Assembly: GCA_012520795.1 (NCBI GenBank)
Contig: JAAYNP010000024.1
Location: 1-60,267 of the forward strand
Source of the DNA: Bacillota bacterium
GTDB taxonomy: Bacteria > Bacillota > Limnochordia > Darwinibacteriales > DTU012
Direction: 5' to 3'
DNA: 60,267 nucleotides
Numbering within the stretch: the stretch's first letter is position 1; each line of letters begins with the position of its first letter. A model generated the notes under the pieces. The model was not told the origin of the DNA. It saw only the letters and a program-made list of their open reading frames with translations, and ran no database searches. The position numbers were made by a program, and so were the translations under genes. This document shows positions 5,079-43,369 of the stretch, one piece after another.

Positions 5079-6206
5079 GTGCGCAGGTTTCCAGTTACTA
5101 TTTTGATTACAGTGTTAGTTCTTTCAGGCTGCCTGTTGTGGCGCAGGGAACCAGGGATTAACGTCACCAGATACGGTGTCCGGGCCAACGCCACGGAATG
5201 TCAGGCCAACGCCATCAATGCGGCGATTAATGATCTGATCGAGCGTGATGGAGGCGGGACGCTTTACTTCCCAAAAGGGAAATATTACATCGGCCCCGGC
5301 CAGCACATCCGCCTTCAGCCAGGAGTCAATCTTGTGGGGGCTGGAATAGGCAAGACCATTATCTGGGGTGAAGACAGCGATGACTACTTGCTCAAGCGGA
5401 AATCTGGCAAGTTGGACGTGGCTGTCTCCCACGTGACTTTAGAAAACCCAGTACGTTTGATTTTGATGGAGACCGTTTCTAATATCAGCTTCTATAAAGT
5501 AGAATTCCGCAAGGGCATGGTCCGCTTTGAGAAGAACAGCAGCAACATTGTGATCGATCACTGCCATTTTGTCGAAAATCTCGGCAAAGCCGCCTATGCC
5601 AGTGATGAATGTGCCAATGTAACGTTAACCTATAATGAGGTAATCAACCCTGCTGAAGGCGGTTTCAACTTAAGCAGGCACCAAAACAGCTATGTGGCTT
5701 ACAACTACATTTATTCTGACACCAACATCGACTCCGGTTATGCCGGAATCAGGCTGCCGAACAGTGCTCACAACAACGTGGTGGAGCACAATGAAATTAT
5801 CCGCATGGGCAGGGGGATTTTTATCCTATCCAGTTCTGAACGAAATGTGGTTGAAAATAACAAGATAGTGCAAAGTACATCCCAAGGGATATTGATCCAG
5901 TCATCCTATAACACGGTTCGGAATAACATAATCCAAGACGCCGGTGCCGAATCCATTTATGTCGTTGATGCCACTTCCGATACGTCGCCTACTCCTTCGA
6001 AGGCTAACTATAATACTATCGAAGGCAATCAGGTCTTGGACACATACCGTATTCCAGGCATTGAGTCCGAGCGCAACCTTGGGCTGCGGATCTACGGGCA
6101 GGGCAACGAAGTCCGGGGCAATACAGTCAGCACGAAATACGGCCGTGGGTTTAAAGAGATCAGTGCCGGCAACATTGATGCTGACAACGTGGATATTCCC
6201 GACTAA
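5079..6206 (+). CDS. Beta-helix lipoprotein, pectate-lyase-3/NosD-like
   Basis: 375 residues from the GTG at 5079 (AAAGGTGGGAG just upstream); an ATG at 5040 is an in-frame alternative. The signal peptide ends in the lipobox LVLSGC. The mature protein opens with INVTRYGVRANATEC ... GGGTLYFPKGKYYIG, the signature start of the single-stranded right-handed beta-helix (Pectate_lyase_3 / GH28-like) fold, followed by many short rungs with Asn ladders (HNNVVEHNEIIRM, RNVVENNKI, YNTVRNNIIQD). It is likely a surface-attached polysaccharide-active or polysaccharide-binding protein. The catalytic residues of a specific lyase or hydrolase family cannot be assigned, so the substrate is open; the genomic setting suggests pectic polymers. 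Confidence 0.78.
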   Translation: MRRFPVTILITVLVLSGCLLWRREPGINVTRYGVRANATECQANAINAAINDLIERDGGGTLYFPKGKYYIGPGQHIRLQPGVNLVGAGIGKTIIWGEDSDDYLLKRKSGKLDVAVSHVTLENPVRLILMETVSNISFYKVEFRKGMVRFEKNSSNIVIDHCHFVENLGKAAYASDECANVTLTYNEVINPAEGGFNLSRHQNSYVAYNYIYSDTNIDSGYAGIRLPNSAHNNVVEHNEIIRMGRGIFILSSSERNVVENNKIVQSTSQGILIQSSYNTVRNNIIQDAGAESIYVVDATSDTSPTPSKANYNTIEGNQVLDTYRIPGIESERNLGLRIYGQGNEVRGNTVSTKYGRGFKEISAGNIDADNVDIPD

Positions 6207-6214
6207 AAACAGGA

Positions 6215-6276
6215 CTCCTTTACTAACACCAGACTACTTATTCCTAATAGAATATAGCGAGGTTTTAGTAAAGGAG
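6215..6276 (+). promoter_or_regulatory. Long hairpin burying the ribosome binding site of the LysM gene
   Basis: CTCCTTTACTAA (6215-6226) is perfectly complementary to TTAGTAAAGGAG (6265-6276). After one mismatch the pairing continues for 3 more bp (6228-6230 with 6261-6263). The 3' arm contains the AAAGGAG ribosome binding site of the gene that starts at 6284. No T tract follows, so this is not a plain terminator. It could control translation of the LysM protein. Confidence 0.6.
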
Positions 6277-6283
6277 GGTTATT

Positions 6284-7252
6284 ATGCATAGCGGACGCGT
6301 TCCTGCTTCCTGCCCCCCGGGGTTTCAGGGGCGTTATACAGTAAGGCCTGGAGACAGCATGTTTTTGATTGCCCAAAGATTTGGCGTTAGTCTAAATGCC
6401 CTGATTGCCGCCAATCCCCACATTTCCAATCCCAGCCAAATCTTTCCTGGAGATGTGCTTTGTGTGCCGGGGCAGCAGCCACCATGCCGGCAGCCTGCTT
6501 CCTGCCCGCCGGGGTTCCAAGGCCGGTACACGGTTCAGCCTGGGGATACCATGTTCACCATAGCCCAGCGATTCGGGGTCAATGTCAATGCTTTGATTGC
6601 CGCAAATCCGCACATCACTAATCCAAATTTGATTTTCCCCTGCGATGTCCTGTGTGTCCCCGGAGCGCAGCCATGCCGCGTACCTGCTTCATGCCCGCCT
6701 AGGTTTGAATGCCGGTACACGGTTCAGCCTGGGGATACCATGTTCACCATAGCCCAGCGATTCGGGGTCAATGTGAATGCTTTGATTGCCGCAAATCCTC
6801 ACATCACTAATCCGAACCAGATTTTCCCCTGCGATGTGCTGTGTGTTCCCTGCAAGAAAGATGTGGAACCGCCATGTGTCGTTTTGCTTAAACGCACCGG
6901 AAGCATGATCTCAGATGCCGCCGGGAGTGCTTTGATCCGGTTTTTGAATACTAACCAACGCTCCATCAGCGTTGTTGGTGTTGGGATTCCCGAACCATCA
7001 GAGCTTGGAGGGTTCAACGGCTACCAGGCAAGAGTTGCGTTCCCGCCGCCGGAGAATACCACTTACCAGTTTACCTTGCTGCCGGTTACACTTGGTCCAA
7101 GTGATCCTGTGACATGGGCTGGGACTCACAATTTCATACCTGGTACTGGGTGGCCGGTCGATACTATGATAGTTGTCCGCCCCCTCAACCGGGATACCGG
7201 GCAAACCGGGGCGGTGGTATTAACCGGCACTTTGACCAACTGCTGTGATTAA
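6284..7252 (+). CDS. Protein with three LysM domains and a C-terminal beta domain
   Basis: 322 residues. Three LysM repeats (about residues 11-60, 75-125 and 138-187) share the pattern [33 protein letters not shown] and a cysteine-containing end (CDVLCVPG). LysM modules bind peptidoglycan or chitin. They are joined by short Cys-Pro-rich linkers. The last ~125 residues are an unrecognised, probably beta-rich domain ending in NCCD. There is no signal peptide or transmembrane segment; LysM proteins of this kind in Bacillota are often spore-coat or non-classically exported proteins. Repeats 2 and 3 are almost identical at the DNA level, indicating a recent duplication. Confidence 0.85.
6522..6812 (+). 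repeat. Near-identical 100-bp direct repeats inside the LysM gene
   Basis: The segments at about 6522-6623 and 6711-6812, 189 bp (63 codons) apart, differ at only a few positions. They encode LysM repeats 2 and 3. Confidence 0.85.
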
Positions 7253-7269
7253 TCAGCGACAATTTGGAA

Positions 7270-7302
7270 AATATCTCCCAATGCAGTGCATTGGGAGATA
7301 TT
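7270..7302. repeat. Perfect 33-bp palindrome with 1-base centre
   Basis: AATATCTCCCAATGCA (7270-7285), G, then its exact reverse complement (7287-7302). It lies between the LysM and GH95 genes. A second small inverted repeat (TGCAT/ATGCA) follows at once. There is no T tract, so it is a poor classical terminator; it could be an mRNA-end structure or a protein-binding palindrome. Confidence 0.6.
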
Positions 7303-7392
7303 GCATTATTATGCAGGAATTTTGTTTTCACGAACAGAATATGTAAACAGATTATTAGGAGGTGTTCGCCAACAGTTCAAGGAGGATTGCTT

Positions 7393-9762
7393 ATGTCAGG
7401 GACGGACAGCACTCACCGCAAACTGTGGTACCAAAAGCCGGCAGCAGCATGGGTTGAGGCGCTGCCTATAGGCAATGGGCGTTTGGGGGCAATGGTTTTT
7501 GGCGATGCGAAGCAAGAGCGGATACAGCTTAACGAGGACACGCTTTGGTCCGGCAGGCCGCGGGACCGCAACAACTATGAAGCTTACAGCCATTTGTCTG
7601 AAGCACGGAAGCTGATTTTTGCCGGTGAATACCACAAAGCCCAAGAGCTGATTGAAGCAAAGATGCAGGGAACATATGCTGAAGCTTATCAGCCATTAGG
7701 CTATGTGACTATCCAATATGACCTTGATGGTGAAGTTTCTGACTACTACCGGGAGCTGGATTTGGATCGTGCTGTTGCCACCGTTTCATTTGCAACCAGG
7801 ACTGCGAAGCATGTCCGGGAGGTTTTTTGTTCCTATCCCGATCAGGCTGTGGTGATTCACCAAAGAAGTGATCAACCCGGCCAGATTAGTTTCCGATTGG
7901 CATTGGGCAGCCTGCACCGGTTTCAGATAGGCACCGAAGGGGATAACCTGGTGCTTGACGGCAGGTGCCCTGTGTCAGTCGTGCCCCGTTATGCGGCGAA
8001 GTTGGACAGCTATGTCATTTATGAGGATGACGTCAGTGAAGGGATGCGTTACCGCATTCAGGTACAAGCACTGCTTGAGAACGGTTCGCTTGATATTGAG
8101 GACGGTAAGTTGTCGGTTACAAATGCCGACTGCGCCACACTTATCTTGGTGGCAGCCACCAGTTTCAATGGTTTTGATAAAAACCCCTATTTGGAAGGGC
8201 AAGATCCTAAAGCTATTTGTGCCGGTATGATCGGAAATCTTTCCGGGAAGACATATCCGGAATTGCTGCAGGCGCATGTTAAAGACTATCAGGAGCTGTT
8301 TTACCGGGTTAAGCTCGATCTGGGCAAGCCTCTCTACCCCAGTCTGCCGACAGATGAGTGGCTGGATCGGGTCAGAAAAGGTGAGTGTGATCCGGCATTG
8401 GCAGCTCTTTACTTCGATTTCGGCCGCTATTTATTGATTGCCTCATCGCGGCCGGGCAGCCAGCCGGCAAATCTGCAGGGGATCTGGAACGATCAGGTAG
8501 AACCGCCGTGGAGCTGCAATTATACGACAAATATCAACTTAGAGATGAATTACTGGCCAGCTGAAGTCTGCAATCTGGCTGAATGCCACACACCTTTGTT
8601 TGACCTGATTGACGATCTGGTGATTAACGGAGGGAAAACAGCCAGGATCCATTACAATGCCCGGGGCTGGACGGCCCATCACAATGTGGATTTATGGCGT
8701 CATTCCGCCCCGGTATGCGGGTCGGCCAAATGGGCATTTTGGCCTATGGCCGGGGCATGGTTGTGCCAGCATCTCTGGAAGCACTATGCCTTCAGCGGTG
8801 ACAGGGACTTTCTGCAAAAACGGGCCTATCCCATAATGAAAGGCGCAGCCTTGTTTTGCCTTGATTGGCTGACAACTGACACTGAGAGTAATTTGGTGAC
8901 GTGCCCGTCTACCTCGCCGGAAAATGAGTTTGTTAGTACCGGCGGTGGCAAAACTGCTGTGGCATTGGGCTCAACCATGGATCTGTCCCTAATCTGGGAT
9001 TTGTTCACCAACTGCATTGAAGCAAGTGAAGCCCTGGATGTGGACGCGAGTTTCCGCAGAGACCTGGACGCAGCCAGAGAGCAGCTGCTTCCTCTAAAAA
9101 TAGGCAGCCATGGGCAGCTGCAGGAATGGCACGAAGACCTTGAAGAAGCTTCACCGGGGCATCGGCATTTGTCCCACTTGTTTGGGCTCTATCCCGGCAG
9201 GCAGATTCTTAAGCACAAACATCCGTTATTAAGCAAGGCTTGTGAGGTTTCCATCAAGCGGAGGATCGAGCATGGGGGCGGCAGTACCGGATGGAGCTGT
9301 GCCTGGTTGATCTGCCTTCTTGCGCGCCTGGAAGATGGAGAACAGGCACATACCTGCTTAGGCAAGCTGCTGCGGGACTTCACCTACGACAATCTTTTCA
9401 ATGCCCATCCGCCTTTTCAGGTTGACGGCAATTTTGGCGCAACCGCCGGAATCGCGGAAATGCTGCTGCAGAGCCATGCCGATGAGTTAAGCCTGCTGCC
9501 GGCTCTGCCCCAAAACTGGCCTGCAGGATCCGTTACTGGATTGCGGGCCCGCAACGGATTCACGGTAGATCTGGCTTGGAACAACGGGCTTCTGGCCACT
9601 GCCAAAATCAAAGCCAATTTGCCGGGCCCGTGCCGCATCCGCTACACTCATCCCCTGGAAGTCTTTTGCGGCGATCAAGAGGCTGCAGTGGAGAAAGAGG
9701 GAGATGTAATCAGTTTCCCAGTGGAAGCAGGGCAGGTTTGCAGAATAACAAGGTGTAAATAA
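7393..9762 (+). CDS. Glycoside hydrolase family 95 (alpha-L-fucosidase type)
   Basis: 789 residues from the ATG at 7393 (AAGGAGG at 7379-7385); the in-frame extension to 7264 crosses the palindrome and has no ribosome binding site. GH95 enzymes hydrolyse alpha-1,2-linked L-fucose, and in some members alpha-L-galactose, with inversion. Family landmarks are the N-terminal beta domain opening [18 protein letters not shown] and LNEDTLWSG, and in the (alpha/alpha)6 barrel [19 protein letters not shown] with the catalytic-site asparagines, [22 protein letters not shown] and [17 protein letters not shown]. No signal peptide, so it should act in the cytoplasm on imported fucosylated oligosaccharides such as xyloglucan or rhamnogalacturonan fragments. 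It fits with fucI and a FucU-like gene elsewhere in the window. A hairpin terminator follows. Confidence 0.9.
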
Positions 9763-42272: not shown

Positions 42273-42375
42273 GACAGCATCGCTCCCTGTTATGAGTACT
42301 GACTGTCTATTCGTTCGGTTGATAGAGTTTTCCTGCTCAAATAAGGTTAGGGGGATCGTTTTTGAAGGTGTTTAA

Positions 42376-42487
42376 TGAACCCATAAAGTGAGATACAAAA
42401 ATAGAAAAGTAAGTTATAATGGAAGCATGAAAAAGAGAAATCAATATTCAGCCGATTTTAAAAGCAAAGTAGTACTTGAGGTACTTA
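42376..42487 (+). mobile_element. Left-end relic of an IS3-family insertion sequence
   Basis: TGAACCCATAAAGTGAGATAC (from 42376) looks like the terminal inverted repeat of IS3/IS150-type elements. A TATAAT box (42415-42420; weak -35 GATACA at 42392-42397) and the first codons of an OrfA transposase follow. The similarity fades at about 42487 and no right end or OrfB is present. Confidence 0.6.
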
Positions 42488-42537
42488 ATGGGGGGCATTA
42501 TAGTGCGTCACAGGATCAACGAAAAATTCGGGTATAG
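42427..42537 (+). pseudogene. IS3-family OrfA transposase, N-terminal remnant
   Basis: A 36-codon frame starting MKKRNQYSADFKSKVVLEVL, the typical start of IS3-family OrfA helix-turn-helix proteins. After about residue 22 the sequence leaves the family and soon reaches a stop. It overlaps, in another frame, the start of the sensor-kinase-like gene at 42488. Confidence 0.65.
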
Positions 42538-43369
42538 AGTTTTCATAATTTCTTGTGCTTTATCTATGGTCACAATCTTATATGTTATGCTAAACATAAC
42601 TTATTTCAGAACAGGGTCATCTGCTGTTACTCTTGTGGCCGCCTTAATGGGTATCAGCCTCTGTTTGTTGGTCTTTTTCATCGGGATTCTGGTGCATATC
42701 CACAGATTGGAGCGGTGCCAGCAGTTGGAACAAAAAATTAAAGAGGCACAGCAGGAATATGTGGAAAAGCTGTTGAGCCTCGTTGATGAGCAGCGCAATG
42801 ATATTTTGAATGCCATCTCAGTTGTAACAGCCTACCTGCAGATCGGAGAATTCCGGCGGGCTCAGAGATACTTGGAATTCATTGCCGCTGATCAGCTCGA
42901 CAAATTTGATTATCACAGCAAGACCTGGCTGTCTGATCCTTGGGAGGCGACTCTCAAACAAAAGCAAAAGGAAGCTCTAGTGCACGGGATTCTGTTTACG
43001 GTTGAAGAAAAACTGAGACCTCCAGAGGACGAGCGTGAGAGGCGGTTGGTGGCCAGGCTGATGGCCAACCTAATCGAGGATGCATTTCAGGGGGTGCTGG
43101 ATGTTCAAGACCGCCATGTTTGGCTGCGGTGGCACCTTGAGGACGGGAAGGCCGTCCTGGAAGTGAAGAACAATCAGCCGGGACAGGCATCGCACTTCTC
43201 GGAGCAGGGTGCAGAGATGGAACCGGCCGGTCGTTACCTGGAGGATGATATCCCGGAAAAGTACATCTGGAGATTGCCGATCTGCCGCCAGATTGCGGCA
43301 GAAGCAGGCGGTATACTTACGGTGACCAACAGCGGCCAGACCACAACTTACCGCTTTGTGCTCCAATAG
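42488..43369 (+). CDS. Membrane Spo0B-like sensor protein, degenerate histidine kinase
   Basis: 293 residues from the ATG at 42488 (GAGGT five bases upstream); GTG at 42503 is an alternative. Two transmembrane helices (about 15-40 and 45-70) are followed by a helical region with the Spo0B-type pattern QRNDILNAISVVTAYLQIG. In Spo0B and related kinases the position of N104 is the phosphorylated histidine (RHDxxN). The C-terminal ATPase-like half keeps only traces of the N-box (ANLIEDAF) and lacks a glycine-rich lid. It probably does not phosphorylate itself and may be a pseudokinase or a signalling scaffold. Its promoter and ribosome binding site lie in IS3 debris, so the N terminus may be altered. 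Confidence 0.7.
   Translation: MGGIIVRHRINEKFGYRVFIISCALSMVTILYVMLNITYFRTGSSAVTLVAALMGISLCLLVFFIGILVHIHRLERCQQLEQKIKEAQQEYVEKLLSLVDEQRNDILNAISVVTAYLQIGEFRRAQRYLEFIAADQLDKFDYHSKTWLSDPWEATLKQKQKEALVHGILFTVEEKLRPPEDERERRLVARLMANLIEDAFQGVLDVQDRHVWLRWHLEDGKAVLEVKNNQPGQASHFSEQGAEMEPAGRYLEDDIPEKYIWRLPICRQIAAEAGGILTVTNSGQTTTYRFVLQ

Follow-up and report, generated by a model that had tools for sequence, protein, structure and literature searches.

The described systems closest to the locus treated here are the AgrC-type kinases of agr quorum sensing, which have the same two domains (SPOB_a and GHKL) as the protein below, and Spo0B, with which it shares the helical domain and a degenerate ATPase half. 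Spo0B depends on its histidine and is identified by its genome context beside obg. According to a survey of Spo0 pathways, SPOB_a alone is insufficient to identify Spo0B (PMC6136694). Spo0B-TM of Paenibacillus is described as a membrane-bound Spo0B with two N-terminal membrane helices, as in the protein below, and its best-conserved region is that of the histidine (PMC12826061).

DivL of Caulobacter, like the protein below, is a natural and conserved acceptor replacement in a retained kinase fold; it is described as differing in having Tyr rather than Asn at the position, PAS domains, ATP-site motifs that are kept and a different DHp family (PMC4211667). In C. difficile, the orphan kinase-like membrane proteins PtpA and PtpB are reviewed as holding Spo0A down, and PtpB as repressing sporulation without need of its His. 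Both differ from the protein below in carrying His, HisKA and PAS domains, and the comparison is made at the level of the general kinase fold (PMC11210211). Among pseudo-histidine kinases, literature searches turned up DivL and examples from plants, fungi and elsewhere, none recognised as belonging to the family of the protein below; in the same searches no paper was found on Asn replacing the acceptor His and none on an AgrC-type pseudokinase was recognised.

The window is the whole stretch of DNA that was analysed, 60,267 nucleotides from a Bacillota bacterium with a draft genome (G000) of 2.37 Mb in 154 contigs, 99% complete. It contains an ORF, judged real, that an earlier note had described as encoding a Spo0B-like membrane protein without its phosphoacceptor histidine, perhaps a pseudo-histidine kinase serving as the dominant partner of a phosphorelay or as a ligand-gated scaffold. 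The features of the gene are collected in Table 1; residue numbering counts from ATG 42488.

Table 1. Features of the pseudo-histidine kinase gene and of the region upstream of it, in window coordinates
Feature	Position	Strand	Basis or remark
Remains of ancestral ribosome-binding site and TTG start region	42349..42364	+	Comparison with orthologues in G003 and G004
113-bp left-end remnant of an element assigned to the IS3 family (start of orfA), in the former 5' end of the gene	42373..42485	+	Sequence comparison
Pseudo-histidine kinase gene	42488..43369	+	293 aa counted from ATG 42488; alternative start GTG 42503 with upstream GGGGGG
Membrane helix 1, about residues 15-40	42530..42607	+	AlphaFold helix 7-40; hydropathy peak from residue 14
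Membrane helix 2, about residues 44-75, continuous with DHp helix 1	42617..42712	+	AlphaFold helix 45-118; hydropathy peak 42-75
DHp helix 1, SPOB_a type, residues 79-118, with invariant RNDILN (103-108)	42722..42841	+	Profile and alignment
N104 codon, phosphoacceptor-histidine position	42797-42799	+	Alignment and profile
N108 codon, Asn of H-E/D-x-x-T/N; invariant in 30/30	42809..42811	+	Alignment; motif as described in PMC3510030
DHp helix 2, residues 122-144	42851..42919	+	AlphaFold model
GHKL (HATPase) fold, residues 150-293, without the N-box Asn (198), G1 (230), lid and G2 (260, 262) residues	42935..43366	+	Model, fold comparison and alignment

Domains and the acceptor position

The Spo0B-type dimerisation helix of the earlier note is supported by the SPOB_a profile (PF14689), which covers residues 86-132 with a score of 28.6 bits (cut-off 28.1) and is matched at E <= 0.01 by 30/30 homologues of the alignment used here (A2). 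The HATPase_c score is 18.1 bits, below the cut-off of 26.4. An AlphaFold2 model with the 30 homologues as input (mean pLDDT 84.8, pTM 0.62) consists of two membrane helices, a long first DHp helix that ends at residue 118, a second one spanning 122-144, and a GHKL ATPase-type fold whose lid region (about 238-256) is of low confidence. By fold comparison, the C-terminal half has the GHKL fold and resembles the ATP-binding domains of DesK, AgrC and VraS (Z about 15); Spo0B is absent among the 50 fold matches listed in this comparison, which mostly tested residues 121-293. The AgrC structures 6E52/4BXI are matched both by profile (E 1.5e-7 and 2.8e-5) and by fold (Z 15.2). For the profile of the helical hairpin, the best solved structure is that of Spo0B (E 0.0034), with its RHDxxN motif aligned to the N104 column.

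In a comparison of structures with the helix profile from the 30 homologues, N104 sits ungapped in the column of the conserved His, as had been claimed, and the column aligns to the RHD of the Spo0B structures 1IXM/2FTK, 9PHZ and 1F51 (E 0.0034-0.0087). Unlike the His-dependent Spo0B, the window protein therefore has Asn at the column equivalent to His30 of 1IXM, and the phosphoacceptor His of a functional GHKL histidine kinase is missing.

A homologue search returned 41 matches in 40/60 genomes, 30 of which make up A2. The motif alone was read in three more (the partial copy of G008, G037 and the second copy of G059); the copies in G028, G031, G033, G034, G038, G042 and G050 are absent from the motif count, as is L031 of G051, where stop codons occur and the motif was not found. 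The L031 homologue, from another family of the class, is broken by one TGA and two TAA inside the match and is a probable pseudogene.

Asn occupies the acceptor position in 6/6 readable members of one clade, namely the window protein and its counterparts in G001-G005 (together five congeners and a sister genus), so that N104 is conserved among close orthologues. His is found in 27/27 other readable homologues (24 rows of A2 and the three copies read separately), including those of three further genera of the same family (G006, G007 and G008). In a tree built without the acceptor column, the six Asn rows form a single clade with support 100/100, with one change on the tree, and the replacement of His by Asn occurred once. 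The direction from His to Asn is best supported because all other readable members, like Spo0B, have His.

Decay of the ATP pocket and retained selection

The N-box Asn, invariant in 24/24 His-bearing homologues, is Asp198 in the window protein, which also reads Q230 for the G1 glycine (G230) and I260 and R262 for the G2 glycines (G260, G262). The residues that a functional GHKL kinase requires for ATP and Mg are thus lacking, the lid residues are gone too, and the description of a degenerate ATPase half with Asp in the N-box proved accurate. The 24 His rows share thirty invariant columns. Residues missing from these columns in the window protein include H104, N198, G230, G260 and G262, and those retained are R103, N108, Y116, L187, L195, A199, V226, L263, I265 and C266. 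The sister-genus copy, L007 of G005, is intermediate, with Asn at the acceptor position, yet N198, G230 and G260 retained. The acceptor was therefore lost at or before the onset of pocket decay.

The earlier note had allowed that a different histidine might serve as acceptor. None of the eight His of the window protein (0/8) is kept in 6/6 clade rows; H72 is present in 4/6. Kinase or phosphotransfer activity could be imagined to persist via another residue such as H143 (codon 42914-42916), which is found in 5/6 clade rows, that is, in 5/5 congeners. However, H143 is absent from the sister genus, and in the model it falls where the second helix ends, in a stretch of low confidence; with the Mg and glycine residues required for ATP use also gone, such retained activity is extremely improbable.

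Mean identity within the Asn clade is 0.585 and 0.60 for the two DHp helices versus 0.458 for the ATPase half, and the reverse is seen within the His group (0.477 and 0.443 versus 0.502). Conservation has thus shifted from the ATPase half to the dimerisation helices in the Asn clade, where the longest invariant run is R103-N108 (RNDILN). The frames are open in 6/6 clade genomes, at 37-64% identity to the window protein. NG86 dN/dS is 0.138 for the window and G004, 0.176 for the window and G003 and 0.192 for G003 and G004, which are rough values given dS of 1.3-1.9, near saturation; of the remaining twelve pairs, eleven are saturated and that of G004 and G001 gives 0.294. The window copy evolves no faster than its sister copies, and selection still acts on the gene.

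The 5' end of the gene has been disturbed in the window strain. The orthologues in G003 and G004 have a TTG start behind AGGAGG; the equivalent in the window is AGGGGG and TTGAAG, followed by the 113-bp remnant, immediately after which the kinase frame resumes. The remnant is 89% identical to the left end of a fuller element at G000:C146 (L092), including the start of orfA. The fuller copy carries orfA and an integrase-like ORF, and the assignment to the IS3 family is a reading of these two ORFs. The first approximately 10 residues of the window protein have been remodelled by the remnant. Because the remnant occupies the former first codons, the start codon is uncertain (TTG 42476, ATG 42488 or GTG 42503), and because the gene start has been rebuilt in this strain, expression of the gene is not certain. 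A promoter scan returned one sigma-70-like site, a number below the average for shuffled sequences.

This insertion, together with the several parts lost in sequence, is what would be expected if the gene were decaying and had no present function. That explanation is quite unlikely, given that the gene is open in all six genomes despite their divergence, that dN/dS is 0.14-0.19 with no acceleration of the window copy, that RNDILN is invariant, and that the frame has stayed open although the remnant has diverged by 11% from its sister copy. With a conserved loss of the acceptor, loss of the ATP-site residues, and a fold and selection that are retained, the window protein is a pseudo-histidine kinase, as had been proposed.

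Relationship to split agr kinases

AgrB was found in 8/60 relatives and, within the family, is present in G006 and G008 and absent from G000-G005 and G007. The gene order in G006, G008 and G018 is agrB, a 41-residue AgrD-type peptide, a membrane receptor half as an ORF of its own, and a SPOB_a/GHKL kinase ORF; the AgrD model TIGR04223 is matched by 4/4 peptides tested (G006, G008, G018 and G037). In other relatives a single ORF of about 440-480 residues encodes a fusion of receptor and kinase. The agr operon of G008 follows the same aconitase, sugar-kinase and CPBP-family genes as the window gene, separated from them by a pectate lyase gene, and its kinase, truncated by the contig end, reads REQRHDIIN, with the His intact. 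This synteny was established by sequence clusters, and the window protein falls in the same family cluster as the agr-encoded kinases, pointing to common descent. The neighbours of the window gene are presumably an aconitase, a sugar kinase, a CPBP protein and a uracil-DNA glycosylase-like protein, names that were assigned by eye.

Since a split agr operon lies beside the same neighbours in G008, the window clade keeps only the kinase half of a split receptor, and gene order and clustering place the window gene, with little doubt, as a descendant of a split agr quorum-sensing kinase of the AgrC/SPOB_a type. Unlike AgrC in an agr system, it has lost the His and the ATP-site residues, has no receptor half beside it and no adjacent AgrA-type regulator, and belongs to a genome without agrB. 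The label "Spo0B-like" accordingly holds for the helix domain and fails for the ancestry, which is that of an agr-type sensor kinase; the genome context, with the neighbours named above and no Spo0F candidate, is also not that of Spo0B. The ligand gating suggested earlier is unlikely because the peptide-binding receptor half is missing.

Split-AgrC agr operons were located at L038 6046-8350, L043 9850-12007 and L051 about 5500-7817, with no adjoining regulator gene seen. In G006 a REC-GGDEF regulator is encoded on the opposite strand, about 3 kb downstream of the kinase, a distance too great for it to be called the partner of that kinase; the same domain make-up is also found among the orphan regulators of G000.

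Putative function and candidate targets

T/N four residues after the His position, the mark of a HisKA-type phosphatase, is present in the window protein as N108 and in 30/30 homologues. In HisKA kinases, as reported for the motif H-E/D-x-x-T/N, the acidic residue is needed for kinase and the T/N for phosphatase activity, and CrdS H371A keeps most of its phosphatase activity, with a half-life of the phosphorylated regulator of 2.6 min versus 53.5 min without CrdS (PMC3510030). PtpB, which needs no His to repress sporulation in C. difficile, is a further precedent (PMC11210211). Loss of the His and the ATP site with the Asn kept is what a kinase-minus, phosphatase-plus protein, or at least a receiver-docking bundle, would be predicted to show. 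The reading tentatively preferred here, with somewhat less than even confidence, is that the window protein is a kinase-dead, membrane-anchored binder of a response regulator and a probable phosphatase, or at least a receiver-docking bundle.

Homology, the single change from His to Asn, selective retention, descent from agr and the lack of a second SPOB_a protein are established here; regulator binding, phosphatase activity and the target are what we infer. The ancestral protein was the kinase part of a peptide receptor in two pieces, whose genes stood together with agrB and agrD. The window lineage then lost agrB, agrD and the receptor part, Asn took the place of the acceptor His, and the ATP pocket decayed. 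The remaining membrane-anchored four-helix bundle may still dock a response regulator via its conserved RNDILN face, and the retained DxxN asparagine, N108, could dephosphorylate an orphan regulator and so keep it off, without kinase activity.

Several points count against phosphatase activity. D105 is also invariant, and its HisKA counterpart serves the kinase and not the phosphatase reaction, such that selection for phosphatase alone leaves it unexplained. The nucleotide-bound ATPase domain assists many histidine kinase phosphatases, and here that domain is degenerate. PleC H610A loses both activities, as cited in PMC3510030, and DivL is reported to lack phosphatase activity and to stabilise the phosphorylated regulator instead (PMC4211667).

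The case of DivL suggests another role, that of a sensor or scaffold that binds a phosphorylated regulator at the bundle and relays information or titrates the regulator without catalysis. DivL, with Tyr for His and a conserved patch around the Tyr, is described as working without kinase or phosphatase activity (PMC4211667); its structure 4Q20 is among the fold matches of the window protein, and D105 is kept though unneeded for a phosphatase. However, in the same account DivL retains the ATP-site motifs that the window protein lacks, and its PAS domains, absent here, shape which state of the regulator is bound; moreover, no partner kinase gene lies near the window gene. A DivL-like role is possible, if somewhat unlikely.

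Inventories of the window genome bear on the partners of such a protein. HATPase_c has nine matches in G000: four sensor kinases, each beside a regulator, CheA, GyrB-, MutL- and SpoIIAB-sized proteins, and the window protein, the last below the cut-off; CheA and the three sized proteins are what we take them to be from length, position and family. The HisKA profile has 2 matches, both paired with regulators, and HATPase_c_5 has none in G000. Domain scans of three of the four paired sensor kinases gave a HisKA or HisKA_3 bundle in each. None of the profiles HATPase_c, HisKA and HATPase_c_5 revealed an unpaired intact histidine kinase in G000; these counts come from profile searches of draft genomes and could miss an orphan kinase of another type. 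SPOB_a matches exactly one protein in each of 9/9 family genomes.

The last count leaves the window protein without a like kinase to act upon as the dominant partner once suggested. It could still be a dominant-negative heterodimer partner of another histidine kinase, in that DHp bundles dimerise and the kinase region of RetS has been solved with the DHp domain of GacS (7N0E). Given that it is the sole SPOB_a protein, that the other sensor kinases of G000 each adjoin their own regulator and that the three scanned are of HisKA or HisKA_3 type, this is very unlikely.

No regulator gene adjoins the window gene, and the target of the putative phosphatase was guessed from the regulator inventory. 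G000 has eleven receiver domains. Among the receiver proteins with no kinase gene next to them are two of Spo0A_C type (L063 4634-5386, G000:C45, and L064 431-1231, G000:C99), a REC-GGDEF protein and a REC-HD protein; the two Spo0A-type regulators would be the best candidate targets, with the other two as alternatives. That Spo0A itself is the target is nevertheless rather unlikely. The Spo0A_C protein beside an rsmB-like gene scores 249 bits; the other, encoded behind a spoIVB-like gene, is divergent in its receiver and scores 164 bits, below the Spo0A cut-off of 200. At least two Spo0A_C proteins occur in 55/60 genomes of the class. No Spo0F candidate was seen in G000, where the sole free-standing receiver is CheY-like and beside CheA, and on this inventory the earlier suggestion of a partner in a phosphorelay finds no support.

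At +7, +8, +11 and +12 from the phosphosite, offsets that we take to be those of the specificity residues, the window protein reads S, V, A and Y, which matches neither of two published sets. Most kinases that act on Spo0F have T-x-G-F, and a pair of orphan kinases from C. acetobutylicum have N-V/I-S-A, one of the pair having been shown to phosphorylate Spo0A directly; CA_C3319 of the same species, with S-V-G-L, illustrates the looseness of the code (PMC6136694). In C. difficile, agrB and agrD are reported to affect sporulation (PMC8534292). Small acid-soluble spore proteins are present in 9/9 family genomes, so the lineage is likely a spore former. An agr-kinase relic, in a sporulating genus without the usual unpaired intact kinase, might then have become a kinase-dead phosphatase or brake on Spo0A, with sporulation control shifted from the on-signal of a kinase to release of the brake, a proposal that is unlikely as it stands.

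The locus and its relatives provide an ordered series for the birth of a pseudo-histidine kinase, from an intact agr operon, through an orphan kinase with His and a protein with Asn and a half-decayed ATP site, to one with Asn and a lost ATP site, in a family where the literature search found none described. They also constitute a clean natural experiment on whether phosphatase activity is what selection maintains in a DHp bundle that has Asn in place of the acceptor His. Were Spo0A the target, the finding would bear on how Spo0A is controlled in sporulating Bacillota without a phosphorelay.
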